DNA of 64,000 nucleotides from Levilinea saccharolytica (GTDB lineage Bacteria; Chloroflexota; Anaerolineae; Anaerolineales; Anaerolineaceae): assembly GCF_001306035.1 (NCBI RefSeq), contig NZ_LGCM01000060.1, positions 62,001 through 126,000 of the forward strand, written 5' to 3'. Numbering within the stretch: the first letter of the stretch is position 1; every line of letters begins with the position of its first letter. A program made the translations under genes and the position numbers. The notes below the pieces were generated by a model. That model did no database searches. It saw only the letters and a list, made by a program, of their open reading frames with translations, and had not been told where the DNA came from. Of the stretch, positions 15,596 to 22,558 are shown one piece after another.

Positions 15596-15624
15596 TTGAC
15601 AGACAGCCCCGATAAGAATATTAT
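15596..15624 (+). promoter_or_regulatory. Sigma-70-type promoter of the peroxiredoxin-glutaredoxin gene
   Basis: TTGACA (15596-15601), a 17-base spacer and TATTAT (15619-15624). It lies 33 bases before the start codon. A good promoter and ribosome binding site argue that the TGA-containing gene is alive rather than decayed. Confidence 0.75.
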
Positions 15625-15657
15625 AGATCAAGTCAGCACTCTCCTGGGAGGATACCC

Positions 15658-16407
15658 ATGCAACTTGCGGTTGGCCAAAAAGCGCCCGATTTCAGCCTCC
15701 CCAGCCATCTGGGGAAAGACATCAGCCTGTGTGAGCTGCGCGGGAAAAACGTCGTCCTGGCGTTCTTCCCCCTGGCCTGGACACCCATATGAACGAGCCA
15801 GATCCCGTCCTACGAGGCCAATCTGGCCAAGTTCGCGGGATTAAATGTCCAGGTTCTGGGCATCAGCGTAGATCACGTCCCCTGTTTACAGGCCTGGGCC
15901 AACAGCCTGGGCGGCATCTCCTACCCCCTGCTCAGCGATTTTTGGCCGCACGGTACCGTTGCCGAAAAATACGGCGTTCTGCGCCCCGACGGGTTCTCGG
16001 AACGCGCCATCTTCATCATTGATGCGCAGGGCATCCTGCGCTACATTGACGTGCATGATATCGGCGAACAGCCCAGCAACCAGGTGCTCTTCGAAGAACT
16101 GGCCAAATGCGACCCGGCCATCGCCGCTGCCCTGCGGGCTGAACCCAGCCAGGATGAGCCCCTGCCCCACGGCGGCGTGGTCATGTACTGCACCGCCTGG
16201 TGCCCCGACTGCAAACGCGCCCGCGCCTGGCTGCGCTCGCACAACATCCCCTACACCGAAGTGGATATTGACGCCAACCCCAAAGCCGCGGCACAGGTGC
16301 GGCAGTGGGCCAACGGCAACCAGACCACCCCCACCTTTGATATTGACGGCCGCATTGTCGTAGATTTCAACGAAGACCAACTGCGCGAGCTGCTCAAGAT
16401 CCGCTGA
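15658..16407 (+). CDS. Peroxiredoxin-glutaredoxin fusion, predicted selenoprotein (TGA = Sec45)
   Basis: One frame of 250 codons runs from the ATG at 15658 (GGGAGG 6 bases upstream) to the TGA at 16405, interrupted only by TGA at 15790-15792. That codon falls exactly on the peroxidatic residue of an AhpC/TSA peroxiredoxin: P38, T42 and codon 45 give PxxxTxx(U/C), in the context FFPLAWTPI-stop-TSQIPSYEANL. Conservation continues unbroken on both sides with no frame change, so selenocysteine is the simplest reading. Residues about 1-155 are the peroxiredoxin (AhpE/BCP-like). Residues about 173-249 are a glutaredoxin-like domain with C182-P-D-C185 and cis-Pro T224-P225. The fusion should reduce peroxides and recycle itself with thiols, as in the cysteine-based Haemophilus peroxiredoxin-glutaredoxin. 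No sel genes are in the window. Alternatives are a nonsense mutation or a sequencing error (TGA for TGC or TGT). Confidence 0.85.
15790..15828 (+). promoter_or_regulatory. Candidate bacterial SECIS element after the in-frame TGA
   Basis: Immediately 3' of the TGA, GCCAGAT (15797-15803) pairs perfectly with ATCTGGC (15821-15827). Inside, CC (15805-15806) can pair with GG (15816-15817), leaving an apical loop GTCCTACGA that starts with G-T. A G in the first two loop positions at this distance from the UGA is the known feature of SelB-binding hairpins. The inner stem is short and the fold was judged by eye. Confidence 0.5.
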
Positions 16408-16503: not shown

Positions 16504-17463
16504 ATGCCCACTCCCATCGTGGAAACCCGCAGCCTGACGTACCGCTACGGCGACTTTTTAGCCGTGAAAGACCTCAGCTTCCACATTGAACCCGGTGAGG
16601 TGTTTGGTCTGCTCGGCCCCAACGGCGCGGGCAAATCCACCACCATCTCCATGCTCACCTGTCTGCTGCCGCCTACCTCCGGTTCTGCCGTCATCGCCGG
16701 GTTGGATGTCGCCCGTTCCGCCGCCGAAGTCAAGCAGCTCATCGGCGTTGTTCCTCAGGATCTAGCCCTCTACCCCACCCTCTCGGCCCGCGAAAATCTG
16801 CGCTTTTTCGGCGAATTATTCGGCCTGCGAGGCAAACCGCTGCGCGACCGGGTGGAAAGCGTGCTGGAATATGTGGGCATGACGGAGCGCGCCAACGACC
16901 CCATCAAATCCTACTCCGGCGGCATGAAGCGCCGCATCAACCTGGCCGTCGGGTTGATCCATTCCCCGCGCGTCCTCTTTCTCGATGAACCCACCGTGGG
17001 GGTAGACCCGCAGAGCCGCAATCACATCTTTGAGAGTGTGGAACGCCTCAACCGTGAAGAAGGCATGACCATCCTCTACACCACGCATTACATGGAAGAA
17101 GCTGAGCGCCTCTGCCGGCGCGTGGCCATCATGGACCGCGGCGAAATCATCGCCCTCAACACCCCCCGCGAGCTGATCGCCATGCTGGGCGGCGGTATCC
17201 TGCGCATCGGCCTCCCACAGGCCGACCCCGCCGTTGCCCAGGCCGTCCAGGCCTTGCCGCAGGTGCGCTCCGCCGCTTTTGAACCCGACGGAGTTTCTCA
17301 CAAGGCCGTCCTCAAGGTGGAGACGCGCAGCGCCAACCCGGCCCTGCTGGAGATTATCCAATTGTTTAACCAGCAGGGGCTGGAAATCCTTTCCATGGAA
17401 ACCCTGGAACCCAACCTGGAAAGCGTTTTCCTGCACCTCACCGGCAAATCGCTTCGCGCTTAG
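16504..17463 (+). CDS. ABC-2 type exporter, ATP-binding protein (DrrA-like)
   Basis: 319 residues. Walker [10 protein letters not shown] (about 38-46), signature [15 protein letters not shown], Walker [15 protein letters not shown] and the switch His in [12 protein letters not shown] are all intact. The C-terminal extension of about 90 residues is typical of the DrrA/CcmA group of drug-export ATPases. AAAGGA precedes the start. Two permease genes follow directly (9 bases, then 6 bases), making a complete ATPase plus two-permease exporter. The substrate is unknown. No terminator separates it from the peroxiredoxin gene 96 bases upstream. Confidence 0.92.
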
Positions 17464-17472
17464 GAATGCGGC

Positions 17473-18744
17473 ATGAACCTCCTGGCTATCCTCAAAAACG
17501 ATTTGCGCCAGCTCACCCGCGACATCCCCCAGCTGGCCGTCCTCTTCCTCATGCCCCTGGCCTTCATCCTGCCCATCGGCTTTGCCCTGGGGGGCGGTGA
17601 CGGCTATGGGCTGCGGTCGGATAACCGCCGCATCTCGCTGCCGGTGGTCAGTTACGACAGCGGCGCATCCGCCGAAGAACTGCGCGCGTCGCTGGAAGAA
17701 AGCTTCATGGTTGAGAACTGGTTCACTGCCCAGCAGATTGAAGCCGCCGGGTTGGCCGCCGACCCCGACTGCCAGACCCCCGGCCCGGCCTGCTTTGAGC
17801 GCACCGCCCGCCGCATGGTGGGCCAGCAGCAGCGCTCCGCCCTGATCATCATCCCCGCTGATTTTTCGCAGCGCATCGCCGACGGCCAAAAAACCGAAAT
17901 TACCCTCGTCTACGACCCCGGCGGCGATTCCACCCGCCTGATGCAAATAGAGGGTGTGCTCAAAGGCGCGGCGGTCAAGCTTTCCGTCACCCATTCGGTC
18001 AACGCCGGCTTCGACCAGCTGCAAAGCCTGTCCGCTGTGGCCCCTGAAGAGATGCAGACCGAGCTGGAAGACGGCCTCAACACCCAGCCCGCCGCCGATC
18101 AGCAGCCCGCCATCCGCCTGGAAACCGTGCAGCCCGCCAACTACACCCTCAAAAAACTGCCCGACACCTTCCAGCAAACCATCCCCGGCTACACGGTGAT
18201 GTACGTCTTTTTCCTGGTGGACTACCTCTCCGGCGCGGTCCGCGATGAAAAGCGCAACGGCACCTTCAAACGCCTGCTCTCCATGCCCGTTCGTCCGGCT
18301 TCTCTGCTGGGCGGCAAGCTCCTGGCGGCCTTTGTCATCGGCATGCTGCAAGTGCTGGTCATGTTCGCCATCGGCGCGGCGGTGTTTGGCATGAACCTGG
18401 GCACGCAGTACTTTGCCCTCTTCCTGCTCACCGCCGCCCTGGTGTGCGCCGCCACCGCCATCGGCCTGGCCGCCGCCACGGTTCCCGGGCTGTCGTCGGG
18501 TCTGGTGCCCATGCTTATCATCGCCGCCCTGCTGGGCGGGTGCATGTTCCCCATTGACCTCATGCCGCCCTTCCTGCGCACCCTCAGCCATCTGGTTCCC
18601 CACAGCTGGGCGCTGGAGGGTTTCCTCGCGCTCATCGTGCGCGGCCAGGGGCTGTCCGCGGTTCTGCCGCAAATCGGCGTGCTGCTGGCCTTCGCCGCCG
18701 GGTTCTTTTTCCTGGCTGTGCGCCGCTTCGATTTCGAAGACTGA
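17473..18744 (+). CDS. ABC-2 type exporter, permease subunit 1
   Basis: 423 residues with the ABC-2 permease plan: one N-terminal membrane segment (about 18-40), a large external domain of about 190 residues, then about five membrane segments from residue 235 onward. TLKKLPDTFQQTIPGYTVMY marks the return to the membrane, followed by EKRNGTFKRLLSMPVRPASLLGGK, the conserved coupling loop. It lies 9 bases after the ATPase gene. It and the next gene are paralogs with the same architecture, so they probably form a heterodimeric channel. Confidence 0.9.
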   Translation: MNLLAILKNDLRQLTRDIPQLAVLFLMPLAFILPIGFALGGGDGYGLRSDNRRISLPVVSYDSGASAEELRASLEESFMVENWFTAQQIEAAGLAADPDCQTPGPACFERTARRMVGQQQRSALIIIPADFSQRIADGQKTEITLVYDPGGDSTRLMQIEGVLKGAAVKLSVTHSVNAGFDQLQSLSAVAPEEMQTELEDGLNTQPAADQQPAIRLETVQPANYTLKKLPDTFQQTIPGYTVMYVFFLVDYLSGAVRDEKRNGTFKRLLSMPVRPASLLGGKLLAAFVIGMLQVLVMFAIGAAVFGMNLGTQYFALFLLTAALVCAATAIGLAAATVPGLSSGLVPMLIIAALLGGCMFPIDLMPPFLRTLSHLVPHSWALEGFLALIVRGQGLSAVLPQIGVLLAFAAGFFFLAVRRFDFED

Positions 18745-18750
18745 GGATTG

Positions 18751-19989
18751 ATGCCTATGCTCACGCAAATCTGGGTCATCGCCCGCAAAGAGCTTCGCCT
18801 GTGGCTTCAGCAGCCCGCCAATCTGGTGGTCATCCTGCTGGTTCCCTTTCTGTTCATCTGGATCATGGGGGCCGTCTTCGGTTCGTCGGGCATGCCCACC
18901 GTGGCGGTCTTCGCCGTCAATCTCGACTCTGGCACCAACGCGGCCCGCGTCCTCAGCGCCCTTCAGGATTCCCCCAATCTGGAAGTGCAGTTGGTCAGCG
19001 ACCGTGCCGAGGCCGACCGGCGCGTGGGTCAGGGGGAGCGCATGGCCGCCGTGGTCATTCCAGCGGGCTTTTCCGAAGCCGTGCTCACCGATTCCGGCGC
19101 GGCCTTGGAGCTGATTGTAGATCCCGCGCGCAATGAGCGCGCCTCCATCGTCACCGGCTTGGTCAACGCCGCCCTGGCCCCCCAACTGGTGGATGCCGAA
19201 GTGGCCCGCGGCGTGAACCGCGGCATCGCCTCGCTGCTCACCTCGCAGGATAACCTGGCGGGTATGGAAACCGGCGTATTGCAGGAGTTCCTCACCGCCG
19301 CCTTCCAGGGCGTGGTGGCCTCGCAAGTGCAGTCAGCCGTCGAAGACCCGCTGGTCTCGTTGAATTTACAGCCCGTGGGGGAAGGCCCGTCTACCGAGAG
19401 CCTGCCCTCCCTGATGGAATTCCTGGTACCGGGCTACACCCTGATGTTCGCCTTCTTTCTGGTCAGCCAGTTGGCCACCACCATCGTGGAAGAGCGCGCC
19501 GAAGGTACTCTGCGCCGCCTGCTGTCCACCCCGGCCAGCAAGGCCGCCATCCTGGCGGGGAAATTCCTGCCCTACGCGGTCATCGCCAGCCTGCAAATTC
19601 TGTTTGTGTTTTTCGTCAGCAGCCTGTTCTTTGATTTCTCCCTGGGGTCTTCGCCCCTGGCCCTGGCCGCCGTCATCCTGCCCATCGCCGCCGTCATCGC
19701 CGCCCTGGGCATCCTCATCGCCGCCCTGGCCCGCACCACCGGCCAATCCAGCGGCCTGACCATTCTGATTGTCCTCATCCTGGCCATCGCATCCGGGGCC
19801 ATGTCTCCCAATATTGCCGTCCCTGGCCTGCAATGGCTGACCCCGCATTTCTGGGCCATTCGCGGCTTCCAAAACATCATCACCCGCGAGATGGGTCTGT
19901 CGGGCGCGCTGCAGCCCGCGGCGGTGCTCACCGGCATGGCCCTTTTGTTCTTTGGGCTGGCCGTGTGGCGCTTCCGCTTCGAAGACTAG
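18751..19989 (+). CDS. ABC-2 type exporter, permease subunit 2
   Basis: About 412 residues, paralogous to the preceding permease: an N-terminal membrane segment, a long external loop, then about five membrane helices with the coupling loop EERAEGTLRRLLSTPASKAA. Possible starts are TTG 18748, ATG 18751 and ATG 18757. AGGA at 18744-18747 supports either ATG, with the second better spaced, so the N-terminus is uncertain by two residues. The stop is 19 bases before the UvrA-like gene, which has its own AGGA, so all four genes form one operon. Confidence 0.9.
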   Translation: MPMLTQIWVIARKELRLWLQQPANLVVILLVPFLFIWIMGAVFGSSGMPTVAVFAVNLDSGTNAARVLSALQDSPNLEVQLVSDRAEADRRVGQGERMAAVVIPAGFSEAVLTDSGAALELIVDPARNERASIVTGLVNAALAPQLVDAEVARGVNRGIASLLTSQDNLAGMETGVLQEFLTAAFQGVVASQVQSAVEDPLVSLNLQPVGEGPSTESLPSLMEFLVPGYTLMFAFFLVSQLATTIVEERAEGTLRRLLSTPASKAAILAGKFLPYAVIASLQILFVFFVSSLFFDFSLGSSPLALAAVILPIAAVIAALGILIAALARTTGQSSGLTILIVLILAIASGAMSPNIAVPGLQWLTPHFWAIRGFQNIITREMGLSGALQPAAVLTGMALLFFGLAVWRFRFED

Positions 19990-20008
19990 CCGCCCTGGCA
20001 GGAACCCT

Positions 20009-22558
20009 ATGGTTGATTCCATCCTCATCCGCGGCGCACGGCTTCACAACCTGAAGAACCTGTCCGTGGCTATCCCCAAAAACCAGTTGGTGGTGCTCAC
20101 CGGCCTGTCTGGCTCCGGAAAATCTACCCTGGGGTTAGACCTCCTGCTGAAAGAAGGTCAGCGCCAATATCTGGAATCCCTGGGGATCTTGCCCTACGGT
20201 TATTCAACCCCGCCGGTCGAATCCATCACCGGCCTGTCGCCCGCCGTCAGCCTGGATCAATATCTCACCCACCAAAGCCCGCGTTCCACGGTGGGAACCG
20301 TCACGCGGGTGTACACCTACCTGCGCGTGCTGTACGCCCGCCTGGGGCGCCGCCCCTGCCCGGCCTGCGGCGCGCTGTCTGCCCCGCCTCTCGACCCCTC
20401 CTCGTTCTGCCCCGACACCGAAGAACCCGACGGCGAGCCTGCCGAGACCCAGCCCACACAAAGCTTTCCCTGTCCGGCCTGCGGCGCGCCGGTTCCTGAG
20501 CTGAGCATGGCGGCTTTTTCATTTAATAAACCCGAGGGCGCCTGCCCCGCCTGCACCGGTCTGGGAACCCTGCTGCTGCCCAACCTGGAGCGTCTGGCCG
20601 ACCCCCGGCGCAGCCTATTGGATGGGGCGGTCGAGGATTGGGACGCTTTCCACACCCAATATCACCTGTCCATCCTGCGCGCCGCCGCGGCTCATTACGC
20701 CGTCCCGCTGGACCTTGCGCTGCCCATTCAGGATTTCTCCCCTGCTCTGCACGACCTGTTTTTCTTCGGTGTCGAAAGTCCCCAGTTCAGCCGTCATTTC
20801 CCCCAAACGCCGCCCCCGCGCACAGTGCGTCAGGGGCGCTTTGAGGGCCTGGCCACCGCGCTGCTGCGCCGCTATGCCCAGCACATTCACGACCCCCGCT
20901 ATCTGCAAAAGCTCTCCGGCCTGCTCACCATTCAAACCTGCCCGGAGTGTGAGGGCAGCCGTCTGCGGCCTGAAAGCCGTGCCGTGGTGCTGCACAACGA
21001 AACCATCATCTCCCTGTCGCGCCTGCCCCTCAGCCAGTTGGCCGTCTGGCTGCGCCAGCTCAGCGTGCATCTCTCCCCCACCGAAAGCCAGGTCGTCGCT
21101 CCCCTTCTGGCCGATCTGCAAGCCCGTCTGGAACACCTGCTGGAAGTGGGCGTATCCTACCTGACCCTTGAACGCACCTCACCTTCCCTCTCCGCGGGCG
21201 AAGCCCAGCGGCTGCGGCTGGCCTCTCTGCTGGGGTCGCCGCTCACCGGTGTGCTCTACGTCTTTGATGAACCCACCCTGGGCCTGCATCCGCGCGACAC
21301 CCTGCCCCTGCTCTCCTTGCTGCGCCGCCTGCGCGATTTAGGCAACACCGTGCTGGTGATCGAGCACGACCCCCAGTTCATCGCCGCGGCGGATCATATC
21401 ATTGACCTCGGCCCTGGGGCGGGCAAACACGGCGGGCAGGTGGTGGTTTCCGGGCCGCCCTCCAAAGTGCTTTCACACCCTACCTCGCTCACCGCCGCCT
21501 ACCTTTCGCACCGTACCGCCATCCCTGTGCCCGCCCACCGGCGCGAGACCACCGCCGCCGTCCTCACCGTGCGCGGCGCGCGCGCCAACAACCTCAAAAA
21601 CCTCACAGTCTCCTTCCCCCTGGGTCTCTTCATCGCCGTCACAGGCGTTTCCGGTTCCGGAAAGTCCACCCTGGTGATGGACATCCTCGACCGGGCCTTG
21701 CGCCCCTCGGCATCGCCCACCGCCCCGCCCCCCGGCGCGCACCTATCCATTGAGGGCGCGGAGCAGATTCAAAAAGTCATCACCCTCGATTCCTCCCCCC
21801 TCAGCCGCGACCCGCGTTCCAGCCCGGCCACCTACACCGACCTGCTCTCCCCCCTGCGGGTGGCCTTTGCCTCTACCCCCCAGGCGCGCCGTTTGGGCCT
21901 CACCCCGCGCCATTTCTCCTTCAACCTCCCCGGCGGGCGCTGTGAACACTGTCAGGGAGCGGGTTTCCTGCCCGTTTCCATGCATTTCCTGCCCGACGTC
22001 AACGTGCTCTGCCCGGCCTGCCGCGGACGGCGCTTCACCCGCCAGGTGCTCTCGGTGGAATACAACCAGCTGAACATCGCCCAGGTTCTGGAGATGACCG
22101 TGGACGAGGCCCTGCCCCTCTTCCAAAACCTGCCCACCGTGCACAGCCGCCTGCAGGCCCTGGCGGATATCGGCCTGGGTTATTTGCAGCTGGCCCAGCC
22201 GGCCCCCACCCTCTCCGGCGGAGAGGCTCAACGCCTGAAACTGGCTAAGGAACTCAAGCGCCGCCCTTCCGCCCACACCCTCTATTTGCTGGATGAACCC
22301 ACCACCGGCCTGCATCTGGCCGATACCCACCGCCTGCTGCGCATCCTCCACCGTCTGGTGGACGCGGGCAGCACAGTTATCGTCATCGAGCATAATCTGG
22401 ATTTGATCAAAACCGCCGACTGGGTGATTGACCTCGGCCCCGAAGGCGGTGCGGCGGGCGGGCAACTCGTGGCCCAGGGCACGCCCGAACAGGTGGCCCA
22501 GACCCCCGGCTCCTACACCGGCCAGGCCCTGCGCCTGCTGCTCGACAAAATTTCTTAA
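20009..22558 (+). CDS. UvrA-like ABC ATPase lacking the UvrB-binding domain (class II, DrrC-like)
   Basis: 849 residues, about 90 shorter than canonical UvrA. Both nucleotide sites are intact: Walker A TGLSGSGKST (31-40) and VSGSGKST (about 547-554), with signatures LSAGEAQRLRLA and LSGGEAQRLKLA, and Walker B strands VFDEPTLGLH and LLDEPTTGLH. Zinc cysteines are present (CPACG twice, CPEC, CEHC, CPAC). After the first CPACG the chain goes straight to the second CPACG and AAFSFNKPEGACPAC, so the UvrB-binding insertion normally there is absent. UvrA paralogs of this kind, such as DrrC of Streptomyces peucetius, protect against DNA-binding drugs. The place 3' of an ABC-2 exporter fits that role. 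The ATG at 20009 is chosen because it starts the conserved region and has AGGA upstream. Confidence 0.88.
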   Translation: MVDSILIRGARLHNLKNLSVAIPKNQLVVLTGLSGSGKSTLGLDLLLKEGQRQYLESLGILPYGYSTPPVESITGLSPAVSLDQYLTHQSPRSTVGTVTRVYTYLRVLYARLGRRPCPACGALSAPPLDPSSFCPDTEEPDGEPAETQPTQSFPCPACGAPVPELSMAAFSFNKPEGACPACTGLGTLLLPNLERLADPRRSLLDGAVEDWDAFHTQYHLSILRAAAAHYAVPLDLALPIQDFSPALHDLFFFGVESPQFSRHFPQTPPPRTVRQGRFEGLATALLRRYAQHIHDPRYLQKLSGLLTIQTCPECEGSRLRPESRAVVLHNETIISLSRLPLSQLAVWLRQLSVHLSPTESQVVAPLLADLQARLEHLLEVGVSYLTLERTSPSLSAGEAQRLRLASLLGSPLTGVLYVFDEPTLGLHPRDTLPLLSLLRRLRDLGNTVLVIEHDPQFIAAADHIIDLGPGAGKHGGQVVVSGPPSKVLSHPTSLTAAYLSHRTAIPVPAHRRETTAAVLTVRGARANNLKNLTVSFPLGLFIAVTGVSGSGKSTLVMDILDRALRPSASPTAPPPGAHLSIEGAEQIQKVITLDSSPLSRDPRSSPATYTDLLSPLRVAFASTPQARRLGLTPRHFSFNLPGGRCEHCQGAGFLPVSMHFLPDVNVLCPACRGRRFTRQVLSVEYNQLNIAQVLEMTVDEALPLFQNLPTVHSRLQALADIGLGYLQLAQPAPTLSGGEAQRLKLAKELKRRPSAHTLYLLDEPTTGLHLADTHRLLRILHRLVDAGSTVIVIEHNLDLIKTADWVIDLGPEGGAAGGQLVAQGTPEQVAQTPGSYTGQALRLLLDKIS

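Follow-up and report, generated by a model that had tools for sequence, protein, structure and literature searches.

An in-frame UGA codon inside a predicted gene raises the question of whether it ends translation, reflects an error or a mutation, or specifies selenocysteine (Sec). The question is posed by an open reading frame of Levilinea saccharolytica, located in the 64,000-nucleotide stretch of DNA analysed here (the window), in which an earlier note had read a selenocysteine peroxiredoxin (Prx) fused to a glutaredoxin (Grx). The present analysis supports this reading and refines it to an AhpE-like peroxiredoxin joined to a glutaredoxin resembling Rv3198.1, within a widespread family.

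The gene and its reading frame

The frame ends with a TGA at 16405-16407 and contains a single internal TGA, surrounded by the motif FPLAWTPIU. Its features, identified on a translation in which TGA is read as U where domains are concerned, are the following:

15596 to 15624, + strand: promoter-like TTGACA-17-TATTAT, 11/12 matches
15646 to 15651, + strand: ribosome binding site GGGAGG, six bases 5′ of the ATG, from the sequence
15658 to 16407, + strand: whole open reading frame, 249 residues with one Sec, its TGA shared by 30/30 rows of the family alignment
15670 to 16047, + strand: AhpE-like peroxiredoxin domain (Pfam AhpC-TSA stretch, PF00578, residues 5-130, E 4.7e-40)
15790 to 15792, + strand: TGA read as selenocysteine 45 (U45), the peroxidatic position of PxxxTPIU, from the alignment and relatives
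15883 to 15885, + strand: Cys76, candidate resolving residue, from its conservation among fusions
16177 to 16359, + strand: glutaredoxin/mycoredoxin-like domain (PF00462, residues 174-234, E 5.3e-17)
16201 to 16212, + strand: CPDC redox motif (Cys182 and Cys185, within WCPDC) of the Grx domain, WCxxC being found in 30/30

The claim that the lone in-frame TGA falls on the peroxidatic residue is borne out by the frame and by the alignment, and the proposed continuation of coding in the same frame through a glutaredoxin with CPDC agrees with the matching of both Pfam domains in one frame. The promoter and ribosome binding site described earlier are also present; two promoter-like sites occur in the region, against a mean of 0.5 in shuffled sequences. 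As had been anticipated, standard annotation would break the gene: a mechanical list of open reading frames made with translation table 11 retains, in the frame of the gene, only the last 118 residues, which comprise the Grx end and begin with GTG.

On the 3′ side, by-eye reading of the open reading frames suggests that 16504-19989 encodes an ABC transporter set and 19952-22558 a UvrA-like ATPase. No conserved gene neighbourhood was seen among the mechanical reading frames within 3.5 kb of the window gene and of 43 fusion loci in named genomes (from the best 80 of at least 584 relatives); the largest neighbour cluster, read by motifs as an ATP-binding cassette protein, occurs in 7 of 44 places, on both strands.

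A family of fusions sharing the same codon

Among 396 class genomes searched, 75 gave a match at 1e-30, which extends to residue 236 or beyond in 31 and contains a TGA in all 31. Thirty of these fusions were read, including that of the window; TGA stands at codon 45 in every one, WCxxC is kept throughout, and the other 29 show 55-69% identity to the window protein (alignment A1). The scan of named genomes used a pair of peptide patterns, the last residue of one being the Cys aligned with Sec45. It gave at least 584 relatives, of which the best 80 comprise 43 fusions (39 with TGA and 4 with TGT or TGC) and 37 single-domain relatives (26 with TGA and 11 with Cys). Some genomes appear in both sets, which have four identical 51-base segments in common.

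Comparison of codon 45 with its homologs, a check proposed in the earlier note, yielded TGA, TGT or TGC and no unrelated residue in 110 rows, the window's own included (named part: best 80 of at least 584 relatives). The gene thus displays a hallmark of bacterial selenoproteins, an in-frame UGA at a redox position that is Cys in homologs. By sequence, it is not a single case: it belongs to a widespread family present in many Anaerolineae. According to record titles or tree labels, 41 of the 43 named fusions (from the best 80 of at least 584 relatives) come from Chloroflexota. Two of the genomes with a fusion, Leptolinea sp. HRD-7 (L074) and Ornatilinea apprima P3M-1 (L077), are named strains that are not labelled as metagenome-assembled genomes (MAGs). 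The fusion is also seen in MAGs labelled Acidobacteria (L087) and Actinobacteria (L094), through either transfer or mis-binning.

A stem-loop downstream of the UGA codon

Directly 3′ of the UGA, the coding sequence can fold into a hairpin:

15801 to 15842, + strand: SECIS-like stem-loop in the coding sequence, from codon-shuffle z, pair counts and free fold
15803-15808 with 15835-15840, 15812-15813 with 15831-15832, and 15816-15819 with 15825-15828, + strand: stems used for pair counts

In the codon-shuffle test, the folding energy of a 51-base segment is compared with that of synonymous permutations within the gene, which preserve both the protein and its codon use. For the segment beginning at the TGA, the class fusions have a mean z of -2.29, with 28 of 30 below -1, while the best of 20 other segments reaches -1.11. 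The sequences from named genomes (best 80 of at least 584 relatives) give means of -2.05 for Sec fusions (34 of 39 below -1, four of the 39 segments being identical to segments of the class set), -1.55 for Sec single-domain relatives (18 of 26) and -0.06 for Cys fusions (1 of 4). The Cys single-domain relatives from the same best 80 of at least 584 are not a clean control, with a mean of -0.93 and 6 of 11 below -1, and this mild signal implies that folding is not absolutely tied to TGA.

Counting from the beginning of the TGA, the hairpin common to the relatives lies at about bases 12 to 53. Its stems were picked partly by eye on the same sequences in which they were counted, and two registers were needed. 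In the register of the window gene (29 sequences), 85.9% of cells are paired, against at most 47.1% when the stems are slid, and 30 cells show a double change, against 9.0 in shuffles, a number reached in 0 of 500; counted by pair, double changes are unremarkable (6 versus 4.4, with 74 of 500 shuffles giving as many). The remaining 35 sequences have an outer stem displaced by one base; 83.5% of their cells are paired and 16 have double changes, against 7.6 in shuffles (0 of 500 as high), and shuffles often equal their tallies of doubly changed pairs (245 of 500) and of pair types (307 of 500). Taking either register, at least five of the six outer pairs form in 54 of 64 sequences and at least three of the four apical pairs in 55 of 64. 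These comparisons indicate that a stem-loop directly 3′ of the UGA, another mark of bacterial selenoproteins, is under selection; RNAalifold alone found no consensus structure, either in the 51-base set or in a 57-base alignment of 29 sequences.

According to the accessible text of PMC13188914 (Fig. 2A legend), the consensus bacterial SECIS (bSECIS) has a loop of 3-9 nt located 16-37 nt after the UGA, an upper stem of at least four pairs, an energy of -7.5 or lower and a G in the first two loop positions; elements in a subset of genes depart from this model. The geometry and energy of the window stem-loop agree with it: the loop starts 27 nt after the UGA and comprises five bases on four pairs in the counted structure, or three bases on five pairs in the free fold. 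The free fold of 57 bases has an energy of -21.3 kcal/mol, and this minimum-energy structure contains the covarying stem. The G at the start of the loop is replaced by AA in the window gene; it is present in 47 and absent in 17 of the 64 sequences. The energy of the conserved stem lies above -7.5 kcal/mol in 11 of 64, including the named strains L074 and L077, and all 64 free folds lie below this value. A different hairpin of seven pairs (GCCAGAT/ATCTGGC), given by the 51-base fold of 15785-15835 with a z of -4.19, was dropped, as it is not conserved in relatives.

The selenocysteine machinery of the genome

A search of the same genome for the Sec machinery, also proposed in the earlier note, recovered every component. 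The assembly that contains the window (4.23 Mb in 65 contigs, 97.65% complete and 4.94% contaminated) encodes selA (532.7 bits in a profile search, over its cut-off), selB (334.3 bits over both parts, cut-off 242), selD (356.7 bits, over its cut-off) and a tRNA-Sec (75.7 bits, gathering score 47), to which ARAGORN assigns the anticodon tca. Among 14 control genomes, five exceed the threshold for tRNA-Sec, two for selB, two for selD and one for selA. The joint presence of SelA, SelB, SelD and tRNA-Sec in one genome is a further property expected of a selenoprotein-encoding bacterium. The four genes sit on contigs other than that of the window, and binning could in principle mislead. The selD gene (C10:81857-82789) has one in-frame TGA and is itself a predicted selenoprotein gene, its product reading SSCAGUASK.

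Linkage between fusion and machinery was considered in other genomes. Ornatilinea apprima P3M-1 carries both the fusion and selA. In Leptolinea sp. HRD-7, titled a complete genome, and in the MAG chromosome of bin52, the genome has room for the contig bearing the fusion and for selA at its position on C1 only if these are one contig. Of the 31 genomes of the class that hold the complete fusion, 27 give a selA match at E 1e-60; none was found at this threshold in G098, G205, G180 and G301, whose completeness is 87%, 77%, 70% and 93%, respectively. Co-occurrence with selA is weak evidence when taken alone, because 318 of the 396 class genomes have the gene.

Domain relationships and a proposed catalytic cycle

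The two halves of the protein point to solved proteins of Mycobacterium tuberculosis. For the Prx half, the top sequence-profile match in the PDB is AhpE (4x0x, E 5.7e-38, among the best 60 of 138 matches). Folds were compared using a predicted model of the Cys form (mean pLDDT 89.9, pTM 0.74), for which the top Foldseek match is again AhpE (4x1u, rmsd 1.4 over 153 columns, 38% identity), and in VIA-align AhpE leads with a Z of 25.6 (rmsd 1.4, 152 positions), in a tie with some 2-Cys peroxiredoxins. By sequence, the domain is AhpE-like and not of the PrxU type, a refinement of the earlier reading. For the Grx half, the best solved chain is 2lqo, ‘Putative glutaredoxin Rv3198.1’ (E 2.7e-9), which we take to be mycoredoxin-1 (Mrx1).

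According to the accessible part of PMC4360819, the sulfenic acid form of AhpE (AhpE-SOH) in M. tuberculosis is reduced by Mrx1, either directly or by way of mycothiol. Since AhpE and Rv3198.1 are nearest to the two halves and form a known pair, the fusion most likely joins, by analogy, a Sec version of the AhpE/Mrx1 pair. That relatives of a donor and its acceptor stand in one chain makes the predicted electron flow directly testable.

Taken together, the gene very probably encodes a selenoprotein, an AhpE-like Sec peroxiredoxin with a built-in mycoredoxin-like reductant, into which Sec is inserted by means of the downstream stem-loop and the organism's own machinery. UGA codon 45 would be decoded as selenocysteine through the stem-loop immediately 3′ and the SelA, SelB, SelD and tRNA-Sec of the genome. 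The selenolate of Sec45 would then reduce a hydroperoxide and be converted into a selenenic acid, and the oxidised selenium would be reduced by Cys182 and Cys185 of the C-terminal mycoredoxin-like domain, belonging either to the same polypeptide or to a partner chain of the oligomer. Electrons may pass from the Grx domain to the selenium directly or after formation of a selenenylsulfide with Cys76, and the domain would be recharged by thioredoxin and thioredoxin reductase or by another thiol; TrxB is present in the genome with a score over its cut-off. The order of the domains, the place of the UGA, the Sec machinery and the selection acting on the stem-loop are read from sequence, and from them follow, as inferences, the insertion of Sec in cells, the peroxidase activity, the path of the electrons and the part played by Cys76.

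Cys76 is found in 30 of the 30 class fusions read, the window's included. Among the best 80 of at least 584 relatives in named genomes, it occurs in 37 of 43 fusions and in 7 of 37 single-domain relatives (3 of 26 with Sec and 4 of 11 with Cys); as six of the 43 fusions in this best 80 lack it, it is not essential in all of them. From this distribution, Cys76 may act as a resolving residue. It may also, by analogy, play a role at an oligomer interface, as Cys83 of human PRDX1 does.

A stronger form of the model can be put forward only tentatively, and we consider it somewhat less likely than not: a self-contained selenium peroxidase that forms a Sec45-Cys76 selenenylsulfide, is reduced by its fused Grx and recharged by thioredoxin reductase, with Sec being ancestral and lost only together with its machinery. 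If true, it would place the AhpE/mycoredoxin pathway within one protein, in organisms where no synthesis of glutathione or bacillithiol was found, and peroxidatic Sec would be ancestral to the fusions, with Cys arising only where the Sec machinery was lost. Searches of the genome gave no match for BshC or for the ATP-domain of glutathione synthetase. A match to MshC (C30:3088-4140, L141) scores 301 bits against a cut-off of 485, in a search that matches 14 of 14 controls and exceeds the cut-off in one of the 14; it is perhaps a cysteinyl-tRNA synthetase.

Alternative explanations

The alternative that survives best accepts a Sec peroxiredoxin and takes the tethered Grx as a general or unrelated oxidoreductase, with thioredoxin or another thiol reducing Sec45 directly. 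The 26 Sec relatives that manage without a fused Grx (from the best 80 of at least 584) and the TrxB of the genome are compatible with it, as is the score of the Grx half, below every Grx model cut-off among the 25 of 28 matches listed. It is nevertheless unlikely in view of the WCxxC kept in all 30 class fusions, of the AhpE and Mrx1 pair known as separate proteins in M. tuberculosis (accessible part of PMC4360819) and of the distribution of Cys76, which mostly accompanies a fused Grx (67 of 73 fusions versus 7 of 37 single-domain proteins; named part, best 80 of at least 584).

Decoding of UGA in bacteria competes with termination, and the GTG-started frame of 118 residues spans the Grx end. 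The gene could accordingly yield mainly two products, one ending at the UGA and one started internally for the Grx part, with Sec read-through being minor or selenium-dependent. This is improbable, as the N-terminal piece of 44 residues would lack most of the Prx domain, and the part of this domain located 3′ of the TGA is constrained as protein. Compared with the 29 homologs, the window gene has differences at codon positions 1, 2 and 3 of 0.27, 0.20 and 0.59 on the 5′ side of the TGA, 0.26, 0.17 and 0.52 in the Prx domain after it, and 0.37, 0.28 and 0.53 in the Grx; their concentration at third positions on either side of the TGA implies that both sides are constrained as protein.

Reassignment of TGA in this lineage, for example to Trp, would equally allow the frame to be read through. 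Its probability is minimal: 13 of the 30 class rows, that of the window included, terminate with TGA, wherever relatives lack TGA (15 of the best 80 of at least 584) the aligned residue is Cys, and the genome holds a full Sec machinery.

An ordinary Cys peroxiredoxin-glutaredoxin gene interrupted by a nonsense mutation or misread in sequencing would account for the frame broken under table 11 and the lone Grx-end frame listed, and is hardly credible when the same TGA occurs in 69 of 73 pooled fusion rows, with Cys codons in the other four (named part: best 80 of at least 584), when codon patterns are protein-like on both sides, when folding is strong in Sec fusions and slight in the four Cys fusions, and when L074 and L077, not labelled MAGs, have TGA at this codon, which is taken as refuting it. 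Sequencing error at 15790-15792, which the earlier note had envisaged, is excluded by the recurrence of TGA in many genomes, and a pseudogene was likewise considered and rejected.

Selenocysteine and cysteine forms of the fusion

A tree built from 106 Prx domains places the four Cys fusions within the Sec fusions, which implies at least two changes; its bootstrap had not converged, many of its forks are undecided and so is the basal order of Sec and Cys. With a threshold of 0.001, selA was found in none of the four Cys-fusion genomes (completeness unstated) and in all three named Sec-fusion genomes tested in the same way. Pooling the latter with the class genomes (27 of 31 at 1e-60) gives selA in 30 of 34 Sec genomes versus 0 of 4 Cys genomes, a difference with a two-sided Fisher p of 0.0009 in which the Cys cases represent about two events and are of unstated completeness. 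Since close relatives have Cys at the same site in genomes where no selA was found, the family offers a natural experiment on the benefit of selenium in a peroxidase.

Relation to known systems

AhpE (Rv2238c) of M. tuberculosis is a one-Cys Prx whose peroxidatic position aligns with U45. It is the nearest solved Prx both by sequence (best 60 of 138 matches) and by fold, with the above tie in VIA-align. It differs from the window protein in having Cys instead of Sec, no fused Grx and a Thr at the position of Cys76; the AhpE type is a one-Cys enzyme that has no resolving Cys, and most fusions of the family carry Cys76, a candidate for that role. Mycoredoxin-1 is a separate protein in M. tuberculosis, and the Grx domain of the fusion scores below the cut-offs of both the mycoredoxin model TIGR02200 (53.8 bits, cut-off 89.5) and the YruB-family glutaredoxin model TIGR02196 (66.3 bits, cut-off 88.55).

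PrxU of Eubacterium acidaminophilum also has Sec at the peroxidatic position of PxxxTxxU and, to our knowledge, no Grx domain. The PrxU model NF040737 gives the window protein 64.6 bits against a cut-off of 270; PrxU of this organism is cited in the accessible part of PMC9312934. The selenoprotein HUGP/GUXX-star (NCBIfam NF045501) is a fusion with a glutaredoxin-like part, and its model matches only residues 173-237 of the window protein, with 32.5 bits against a cut-off of 325. In the hybrid Prx5-glutaredoxin of Haemophilus influenzae, the Grx is thought to recycle the Prx within one chain; it is a Cys enzyme of a different Prx subfamily. The hybrid chain is absent from the best 60 of 138 solved matches, among which AhpE ranks first. 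From marine metagenomes, the accessible part of PMC2398784 describes a Sec Prx fused to a PP2C-type phosphatase and a Prx-like 3 fused to Unknown_3, which has CxxC; unlike the window gene, none of these fusions has a glutaredoxin named as partner in that part.

No NCBIfam model exceeds its cut-off on the window protein among the 25 of 28 matches listed, the top scores being 66.3 bits for the YruB-type Grx (cut-off 88.55) and 66.1 for a peroxiredoxin model (cut-off 211). The accessible parts of reviews and surveys list Sec Prx and Sec Grx separately, together with other Prx fusions, and do not describe a Sec Prx-Grx. In keeping with the earlier note, which was aware of no account of the combination, no description of it was found in the literature searched, which included few subscription papers and did not extend to Haft and Tolstoy 2025. 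The fusions add a selenoprotein family with good support, which is split in two when read with table 11 and for which no listed NCBIfam model is over its cut-off.

AhpE-like peroxiredoxins of a single domain that share the TGA codon (L097-L119, L121, L122 and L124) come from records titled Acidobacteria, Eremiobacterota, Bacillota (Tumebacillus, Sulfobacillus and Calidifontibacillus) and others. A Sulfobacillus thermotolerans protein named PrxU, detected by proteomics according to the accessible part of PMC7409299, may belong with them. The TGA-containing Prx of L122, a MAG titled Bordetella parapertussis, is very close to that of a Burkholderiales MAG (L124), and its title is suspected to be a wrong label.
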